Assembly (NCBI GenBank): GCA_027596075.1
Contig: JADGJC010000142.1
Coordinates: 18,479 to 82,478, forward strand
Length of the DNA: 64,000 bases
Source: Rhizophlyctis rosea
Lineage: Eukaryota > Chytridiomycota > Chytridiomycetes > Rhizophlyctidales > Rhizophlyctidaceae
Direction: 5' to 3'
In this document: piece after piece, positions 52,147-55,094 of the stretch
How positions within the stretch are numbered: the first letter of the stretch is position 1
Layout: each line of letters opens with the position of its first letter
Position numbers and translations under genes: made by a program
Notes under the pieces: model-generated
Seen by the model: only the letters and a program-made list of their open reading frames with translations
Database searches by the model: none
What the model was told of the DNA's origin: nothing

Positions 52147-55094
52147 CTACTCCTCCCCTCCGAAATCGAAGCCTTCCTTAAAAGCCTCATAAATATCCTC
52201 TGCGAGCTGGTTCAGGCTTTCCTCACTATCCCAACCAGGTGGCATCTCTTCGTCCTCATCCACGTCCTCGGTGCTGTCGAACTTGTCCTGCAAAGTCTGT
52301 GCCAAATTTGATCAGTATGGGATGACAAACATCCATTTTCAACAGTGCACACCTGCGTGGTTCCAGGGTCATAGACAGACTCATTTTCATCCAACAGAAG
52401 TTTTTGAAGTCGACGGATGTCTGGTTGCTGCAACGTTTGGATGCTGTACTCCCAGTCGAACGGCAAGAAGGATTGGAGGATGTCCATCCGTCTGGAAGAC
52501 TTGTCAGTTGTAATCACGGACTTGATCCATACAAGCTTAAACTCACTTGATGCACTCCGTTTTGAAGGAGAGCCATTCACTCGTCTTTTTGAAGTTGGCC
52601 GGTGGGTACCAAAAAACAAATTCTGTTTCCACGATCAAAAGGGAGAGGTACGGGTCCATTTGGATGGATGCGTGGAGTTCGGTCAAAGCAGGACACCGAA
52701 TATCGATTGTGAAGTAAACATCGTCGAGGTCAATCTCATCGAATTTAGTAGGCAGGTTGGGAGTAGGCAAATGCCGGGTCGCAAGCCAATATTTTTCGGC
52801 AACACCGAACATGTCGACTTTGATAGCAGCGAGGTGAGAATGGTATTCGGAAAGGGTTGGCAAGGTGTATGCGGCCTGAGAGTTCTTTCGGACTAACAAG
52901 CGGCTGAACCCCTACACAAAAGTTTCATAAATCTAATCAAGAAGTCAATTGCCTCAAAACAGTATATACCCACACGAAATTGTTTCTGATCGTCCAAGAG
53001 CATGAGCGTTTGTTCAATTCCCTTCATAGTGCCTACGTAGCGCGTAATTTGGTCCTTATCCCAATGAGCAGGTGTCTCCAGCAAAAAGACATCTGATGAT
53101 TCGCATTGTTAGATTAAATCAGCTCAATACCAACGAGACTGCTGCTTACCATGTGTATTAAGATCAATACTCCTGGGCATGCCGCCTCGAAGGCGGCTGG
53201 TCGCAATGATGGTGCTGTCCCGGATGACGCCAATCGTGCCAAGTGTTGTTTCGTCCGGGTAGATTTTGCCCCGAACGCTGAAACTGAACCCTTGTGCCGG
53301 GTACAGCGTTCGCCTTTCAAGCTCGATTTTGAGATCCATCAGAGTCGTCAAGCACTCTGCCAGCACGCAAATTGTGGCACCAGTAATGTGGCGGATGAAG
53401 ATGGGAAAATTTCCCTCTTCTTCCGCAGTAGCGTCCTGGTATTGGTGGTATTCGGAGGCGAGAACGTTCATGTTGGACTCGGCCTCAGTGAACTCCATCT
53501 CATCCATACCCTCGCCCGTGTACCAGTGCAAGAAAGCCTTTCGCAGGAACATGGCAGTGAACTGGTCGGAGATGCGCTTGAAGAGTTCCTGGATGGCGGT
53601 GGAGTTGCCGATGAAGGTGACGGACATCTTGAGACCCTTGGGCGGGATGTCGTGAACGGCGGTCTTGACGTTGTTGGGGATCCACTCAACGAAGTAGGAG
53701 GAGTTCTTGTTTTGAACGTTGAGCATTTGCTCGTCGACTTCCTTCATGGACATGCGACCACGGAACATGGCGGCGACGGTGAGGTAGCGGCCGTGGCGGG
53801 AGTCGGAGGCAGCCATGATGTTCGTGGCGTCGAACATTTGTTGGGTGAGCTCGGGAACGGTGAGGGCACGGTATTGTTGGAAGCCAGAGGAGGTGAGGGG
53901 AGCGAAACCGACCATGAAAAAGTGAAGACGGGGGAAGGGGACCATGTTGACGGCGAGCTTGCGGAGGTCAGCGTCTGTATGTTGTTGGATGAGTATTGGA
54001 AAGATGCATTGATGTAAAAATTGCGAATTTGAAACTTACTCGATTGATCGGGGAAACGCAAGCAGGTGGTGATACCGCTCATGACGGCAGAGACGAGGTG
54101 GTTGAGGTCGCCGTAGGTTGGGGTGGTGAGCTTGAGGGTACGGAAGCAGATGTCGTACAAGGCCTCGGTGTCAATGCAGAAGGTTTCGTCGGAGTTCTCG
54201 ACAAGTTGGTGGACGGAGAGGGTGGCGTTGTAGGGTTCGACGACGGTGTCAGAGACCTTGGGGGAGGGAACGACGGAGAAAGTGCACATCATACTGTAAT
54301 GGGTGTTTGGATGTATGAGATTCACGCAGTCATCATGATTCTAGACATGGATGCCTCACCGGTCGGGGTATTCTTCACGGATCTTGGAGATGAGAAGGGT
54401 ACCCATACCAGCACCGGTACCACCATCAAGAGAGTGAGTGATTTGGAAACCTTGGAGGCGGTCGCAGGATTCGGCTTCCTTGCGCACGACGTTGAGAACA
54501 GCGTCGACCAACTCGATACCCTCAGTGTAGTGACCCTTGGCCCAGTTGTTGCCGGCACCGGATTGACCGAAGACAGAGTTGTCCTATTGACGCAAATAAG
54601 AGTAAACATCCTCTATACAACAGAAAGACTGCGGTGATCGACTCACCGGACGGAAGAATTGACCGAAAGGTCCGGCACGGACAGAGTCCCTAGTTCCGGC
54701 TTTCAAATCCACGAGTATAGAGCGGGGAACGTACTTGCCACCGGCTGCCTCGTTGTAGTAGACATTGATGCGCTCAAGCTGGAGGTCAGAGTCACTGTGG
54801 TAGATACCGGTGGGGTCAATACCGTGCTGGTGGGAACAACTGGAGTAAGACGCATATCTGCACACAATGACATGGGAATGGGTGCTCACCTCGTCGGAAA
54901 TGACTTCCCAGAGCTTGGGCCCAATTTGTTTACCGCTTCGACCGGTGGGGAAAGAGTTCGGACGGGTAAAGGCTGCAATAGGTGGTGAAGTTGTCATGGG
55001 AACAACATATAGGCACAGCGAAAGAGTTGGATGGATGATCAGCCACATGTTTGAGTAAATATAGCTGCAGGCGTATTCACTTACGTGGTAGCAT
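52147..55094 (-). CDS. divergent beta-tubulin fused to a ubiquitin-like domain and an unknown C-terminal protein
   Basis: Ten exons: 55094-55085, 54972-54890, 54826-54647, 54583-54360, 54293-54040, 53974-53150, 53092-52974, 52911-52547, 52491-52353, 52296-52147. Total 2349 nt, 782 aa, no stop. Residues 1-439 are beta-tubulin (e.g. [62 protein letters not shown]). Residues 440-515 (53408-53181) are ubiquitin-like, from [10 protein letters not shown] to RLRGG. Residues 516-782 start [10 protein letters not shown] and form an unknown protein with an acidic end. The exon carrying the tubulin C-terminus also carries the whole ubiquitin-like domain, so the fusion does not depend on any splice choice. 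Tubulin loops T1, T4 and the LVDLE region are altered. Start is inferred from a 10-nt first exon. Confidence 0.88.

Follow-up and report, generated by a model that had tools for sequence, protein, structure and literature searches.

We found that in Rhizophlyctis rosea a copy of a beta-tubulin gene continues in frame into a ubiquitin-like domain (UBL) and from there into a protein of an orphan family, here called X. The chimeric gene lies at 54997-52147 on the minus strand of the window, by which we mean the whole stretch of 64,000 nucleotides that was analysed (C49:18479-82478, in an assembly of 44.1 Mb and 634 contigs); coordinates given without a contig refer to it. We propose, with a probability of roughly 0.4, that this is an exon-shuffled chimeric gene in which the Gly-Gly end of the UBL would serve as a processing (or conjugation) point that releases X.

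Anatomy of the fusion gene

The spliced model comprises nine exons and encodes 784 residues, with tubulin up to residue 443, the UBL at 445-520 and X at 521-784. Exon 1 (54890-54997, minus strand, like all exons that follow) does not carry the MREI start, and its N-terminus is unlike that of the beta-tubulin on contig C614. Two starts are open for this exon, one at 54997, which the public annotation uses, and one at 55094 (MLPPFTRP, inside the span of the first-pass annotation), and an alternative first exon 55094-55085 would splice to 54972. Exon 2 (54647-54826) encodes the beta-tubulin GTPase domain (Pfam PF00091) and carries E69K relative to C614, exon 3 (54360-54583) carries G140D in the GGGTG loop, and exon 4 (54040-54293) is likewise beta-tubulin. 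The fusion exon, exon 5 (53150-53974), reads as a single open frame without a stop from the C-domain of tubulin through EEEGN into the 76-residue UBL with the end SRLRGG (53181-53408) and on into the first ten residues of X (53150-53180). When the junction was inspected by eye, no splice site was seen, and a hidden splice site that would restore the normal tubulin tail was rejected on this basis. X then continues, after a phase-1 intron, in exon 6 (52974-53092, followed by a phase-0 intron), a core exon (52547-52911, phase-2 intron), a further exon (52353-52491, phase-0 intron) and a last exon (52147-52287) that encodes an acidic tail and ends in the stop codon TAG. For exon 6 the donor GTGGGT was preferred to the other candidate, which would disrupt the frame, and this choice gives X its length of 264 residues. 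The first-pass annotation had described an in-frame succession of tubulin, a 76-residue UBL and a C-terminal protein across an open exon, which is what we observe; the new protein does begin directly after GG, but its length, given there once as ten residues plus 266 codons and once as residues 516-782, has to be corrected to 264 residues.

The spliced model and a public protein of 538 aa (P0001), named 'Tubulin beta-4B chain [Rhizophlyctis rosea]', are identical over the first 530 residues. This identity spans tubulin and the whole UBL, and the public annotation thus contains the join. Most of X is missing from P0001 because it reads into the intron at 53149 and then stops. An assembly artefact that joined two loci at 53409 is highly improbable, as nothing interrupts the exon and the window's single run of N (26058-26067) is far from the junction. 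P0001 carries the same join, possibly on the basis of the same set of reads, and joins of the same kind recur on contigs C408, C608 and C105, as described below.

In an ungapped alignment with R. rosea ubiquitin, 22 of the 76 UBL positions are identical (29%), whereas in 100,000 shuffled versions of the UBL the number of identities averaged 5.3 and never exceeded 17. The identities fall at the positions named in the first-pass annotation, and its reading of Ser at position 44, Arg at 63 and Phe at 1 was confirmed as well. Pfam PF00240 matches a 77-residue piece with an E-value of 2.7e-5 and 24.3 bits, 1.1 bits short of the curated cut-off of 25.4; the UBL of the C408 paralogue passes this cut-off with 30.8 bits. 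A prediction of the junction by AlphaFold, run without an alignment, had a mean pLDDT of 45.4, which is too low to use for the ubiquitin fold. Six aligned rows made up the comparison of UBLs, with the C105:50k and C105:59k domains (LLGG ends) left out. Positions 44, 68 and 70, which we take to form the Ile44 patch of ubiquitin, are altered in the fusion UBL (I44S, H68I and V70T), and position 71 is Ser in place of Leu. Since residues of the Ile44 patch are altered, cutting after GG is uncertain.

The tubulin part

Both tubulin domains were recognized in the fusion (PF00091, E 2e-50; PF03953, E 8e-41). The fused tubulin is 94% identical to C614 over query residues 2-191, and C614 is a complete beta-tubulin copy with introns at the same places. 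Over codons 28-434, 70 of 1221 nucleotides differ between the two copies (94% identical), whereas identity in the four tubulin introns is only 62.5% (248 aligned columns, 24 gap columns). The tubulin exons contain no stop or frameshift, the splice sites are intact, and the frame is whole over 434 codons. Because the exons are so much better kept than the introns, we conclude that the fused tubulin long stayed coding and that, during the greater part of their history, its exons were preserved by selection or by conversion. Two methods gave a dN of 0.031-0.033 and a dS of 0.157-0.243 between the fused copy and C614, and a dN/dS of 0.13-0.21; over the 434 codons, 41 nonsynonymous and 37 synonymous codon differences were counted. 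In simulations of neutral substitution, a frame without a stop and with at most 28 replacements was retained in 17% of runs with 40 substitutions, in 0.3% with 50 and in 0 of 3000 with 65, these numbers of substitutions being assumed ones from which the true number on the fused-tubulin lineage may differ. Gene conversion could account for part of the slow change in the exons.

The same comparison revealed replacements that are concentrated in the fused copy. Over the last 141 codons, with the sister tubulin on C81 as a third sequence, all replacements fall in the fused copy and none in C614: four codons are unique to the fused copy, and at four more all three codons differ while C614 and C81 keep the residue. 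Relative to C614, the changes include Q11R, C12S, E69K and G140D, all presumably at or beside the loops that contact the nucleotide (GTP), and in addition the N-terminus has been replaced, as has the tail, by the UBL. The MREI start, the intact GTP-contact residues and the acidic tail of a normal beta-tubulin are thus all absent. As amino-acid changes pile up in this way, constraint on the tubulin copy has been relaxed, and in our reading the tubulin part is a pseudo-GTPase whose sequence remained coding. The cut product that had been suggested at first, a tubulin ending in an exposed LRGG, would be at most a pseudo-tubulin, with MREI lost and GTP-contact residues altered.

Here a beta-tubulin gene has been duplicated together with its introns; the copy no longer has its acidic tail and runs on, in frame, into UBL-X. 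The point at which the fusion leaves tubulin coincides with an intron in the sister tubulin C81 (phase 1 by reading). Because the tubulin part ends at the place of this intron, exon shuffling is the process that would have made the join.

The GTP-site changes would also be expected if the gene were a by-product of gene-fragment duplication, that is, a dying tubulin copy that reads by chance into UBL-X and yields a fusion protein without a role. UBL-X, if made at all, would then start at an internal Met 21 codons before the UBL. We regard this explanation as possible, though on the whole somewhat improbable: the tubulin frame has remained whole over 434 codons while its introns diverged to 62.5%, the splice sites are intact, and tubulin coding sequence runs right up to the UBL. 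UBL-X itself is open, with RLRGG kept, both here and in its second copy on C408.

UBL modules behind other genes

On contig C408 (approximately 4893-7600, minus strand), a second UBL ending in RLRGG is followed by a homologous X. The local alignment of the two X proteins has a score of 128, against a mean of 33 (SD 5.3) and a maximum of 57 in 2000 shuffles. Introns 2 and 3 of X have the same place and phase (0 and 2) in both copies inside the aligned block. In both copies intron 1 (phase 1) precedes the block by three residues, and intron 4 is in phase 0 in both, before the acidic stretch and outside the block, with about 7 residues between the two positions. Before the end, only 13 of 71 UBL residues are identical between C49 and C408, whereas the terminal RLRGG is identical at all five. 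With 18 identities placed at random among the 76 positions, the last five would all match in about 5 of 10,000 cases by our own arithmetic. That the RLRGG end is kept despite the divergence elsewhere supports the view that the GG end is under selection. Both cutting and conjugation would require this end.

The C408 UBL lies in a single open frame of 238 codons, after a cullin-1 piece (PF00888) and a stretch of 78 residues to which a Pfam search gave no match. The cullin DNA is a copy of that on C602, with 92% identity over 681 columns and 88% over 588. It has an internal deletion of 216 bases (size taken from the alignment coordinates) that keeps the frame, and by eye the frame crosses a lost intron donor of the truncated cullin-1 copy. 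UBL-X is thus a gene of its own that is present elsewhere in the genome without tubulin.

Joins of a comparable kind were observed on two further contigs. On C608 (66500-71000, plus strand), a WD40 piece of Cdh1/Cdc20 is followed by a truncated ubiquitin, a full ubiquitin ending in RLRGG and a diverged UBL; the join forms one frame of 567 codons, perhaps including a read-through intron, and another Cdh1 copy, 87-90% identical, starts at the edge of C68. On C105 (34000-60600), four tandem UBLs on one strand each stand before a C-terminal protein Y, whose family is distinct from X and in which GG is followed by ...LDxYNxLPW... in most copies (the copy at 59k by eye only). At 59k and 50k the partner is a CLF1 piece, at 43.8k a CDK1/2-like piece and at 35k a piece of SMC3. 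The CDK piece and its UBL share one open frame, with a frameshift upstream and another in Y by reading, and the SMC3 piece joins its UBL via a phase-0 GT-AG intron, again with a frameshift in Y by reading. A second SMC3 copy, on C620, is 80-94% identical. No CLF1 copy was found in the genome outside C105, so one of the C105 copies may be the working gene. Across C49, C408, C608 and the four C105 loci, the UBLs end in RLRGG in five of seven cases and in LLGG in two. The GG-ending UBLs after Cdh1, CDK, SMC3 and CLF1 indicate that UBL modules repeatedly came behind pieces of conserved genes. These loci also contain features that the chance read-through of dying copies would explain, namely frameshifts in at least two of the four C105 UBL-Y loci and the incomplete state of the CUL1 and Cdh1 pieces.

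The partners were recognised by eye from the open frames read for some of the 64 PF00240 matches; among the unread matches are those on C74, C76, C202, C460, C631 and C35. Five of the six partner kinds (tubulin, CUL1, Cdh1, CDK and SMC3) are proteins that we take to act in cell division. This preponderance is an impression, because only part of the matches were read and only conserved proteins are recognisable, and a strict cell-cycle specificity is weakened by CLF1 and by a decayed DBP5-like copy without a UBL near the fusion gene. If it were real, it would suit a protein that is never cut, in which the UBL is a fixed domain and pseudo-tubulin, pseudo-cullin and the others would engage the cell-division machinery as decoys or as dominant-negative partners. 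The mutated or incomplete state of these five and the altered Ile44 patch are consistent with such a role. We consider it unlikely, since a kept GG end would be pointless in an uncut protein, the bias rests on partners noticed by eye among conserved genes, and CLF1 fits poorly. A wider proposal is that UBL modules with a GG end repeatedly capture the front of essential cell-division genes and of the splicing factor CLF1. The products would be polyproteins from which an orphan protein is freed after GG, with crippled UBL-tailed copies of mitotic proteins left behind that could be conjugated to targets or serve as decoys, in what would be a new system of genetic conflict or regulation; this we hold to be doubtful indeed.

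Directly downstream of the fusion gene and on the same strand (approximately 50590-51230) lies the decayed, frame-broken copy of a DEAD-box helicase mentioned above, which by eye is most like DBP5 (Pfam DEAD, E 9e-8; 64% to C260). As it has no UBL, gene-fragment duplication here is evidently not limited to UBLs, and its position next to the fusion is a further point in favour of a by-product. A transposon carrying the module was considered and rejected: among 25 inverted-repeat pairs in 49000-58000, none was convincing. One pair of 30 nt with 70% complementarity (52135-52164 and 55358-55387) brackets the gene and was taken as chance, because one arm overlies the stop codon. The 3' flank of the gene was not found as a repeated unit in the genome, the single match being one of 86 bases and 77% on C535. 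Two neighbouring Myb-like DNA-binding frames were seen in the window at 34450-35646 and 38497-39609 (minus strand).

Elsewhere in the genome, UBLs are joined to partners of quite another kind. On C573 (34568-37783, minus strand), a TIR-like frame (PF13676, E 0.002, under the cut-off) lies upstream of a UBL that ends in LRGGGG and has its own C-terminal extension. The UBLs of four loci on C34, C605 and C1 end in GGC, CGC or RGC right before the stop, an odd C-terminal cysteine that replaces the free GG; the first three have upstream of them a related N-terminal frame that is GRDP-like by eye (Pfam only E 0.09 for C605). A family on C106, C164, C290, C56 and C471 combines a common N-domain, a UBL ending in GG or more Gly residues and an APRWR...C...C motif, and the C290 member has a RING-like match (E 5e-5, under the cut-off). 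Finally, C442:242900-245000 (plus strand) carries a cluster of short repeated exons (FLYDGQRLTG...) that match the ubiquitin family weakly and, judged by eye, may be SUMO-like.

Known systems and proposed mechanism

A search of 5.8 billion proteins, which requires shared five-residue words and a similar protein length, found no UBL-X homologue outside R. rosea, the sole match being P0001. A profile search of proteins with the two UBL-X sequences again gave only P0001, and no homologues of Y were found in the protein search. Compared with the PDB, X had no relative at an E-value of 10 or less, and in Pfam nothing rose above chance (LEDGF, E 0.13). No description of a tubulin-UBL fusion was found among the titles and opening lines of abstracts searched in a partial, open-access library, in agreement with the earlier impression that tubulin upstream of a ubiquitin-like domain is new.

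Ubiquitin C-terminal extension proteins consist of ubiquitin fused to ribosomal proteins, the ubiquitin being N-terminal and starting with Met, and the cellular ubiquitin fusions known to us all place ubiquitin first. Frames resembling Ub-S27a and Ub-L40 were seen by eye at C245 and C1:110k. The fusion described here is like these extension proteins in that RLRGG is followed by a separate protein, the 264-residue X, which a cut after GG would free. It is unlike them in that tubulin precedes, the UBL is internal, begins with Phe in place of the N-terminal Met1 and shares only 29% identity with ubiquitin, and the part after GG belongs to an orphan family.

We know of no link of UBLs to B chromosomes. 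The extra, broken copies of cell-division genes resemble what is described, in the portion of PMC7509943 that we draw on, for the B chromosomes of animals. These are reported to gather cell-cycle genes, both as copies and as fragments, and among the entries of the paper's table are a beta-tubulin and an SMC protein 3, the latter listed under the gene name SMC2. The difference is that animal species are concerned there. According to part of PMC5289972, Crinkler (CRN) effectors are encoded by modular, recombining genes with a UBL-fold header, and a chytrid is among their reported sources. In CRN proteins this header stands at the N-terminus, carries LXLFLAK-type motifs and precedes an effector C-terminus, whereas the UBL here is internal, resembles ubiquitin itself and ends in GG, and X matches nothing in the PDB and, in Pfam, nothing above chance. 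The closest precedent for cutting is the cytopathogenic pestivirus CP Rit, where, as far as an excerpt of PMC8310069 goes, an N-truncated ubiquitin within the polyprotein signals cutting by cellular hydrolases. That case concerns a viral polyprotein with true ubiquitin, and here a nuclear, intron-bearing gene carries a diverged UBL.

In the processing model that we prefer, the gene would be transcribed from the tubulin side into a single messenger, since the coding sequence of tubulin reaches up to the UBL and no room is left for a separate promoter. A ubiquitin-specific hydrolase would then cut the polyprotein after GG, which would free X and leave a GTPase-dead pseudo-tubulin with a UBL tail. 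The UBL would in effect serve X as a cleavable linker by which it is carried along with a host gene. Cutting is favoured by the kept GG end and the pestivirus precedent, and against it stand the changes in the Ile44 patch and L71S, so that this step must be regarded as uncertain; conjugation through the GG end is a possible alternative to it.

If the proposal is true, a UBL that stands between a copy of a conserved gene and an orphan protein, with different partners in one genome, would show that outside viruses, too, evolution has used a ubiquitin-type GG as a general cleavable linker in gene fusions. It would also make it possible to test whether the cut end of a structural protein is conjugatable.
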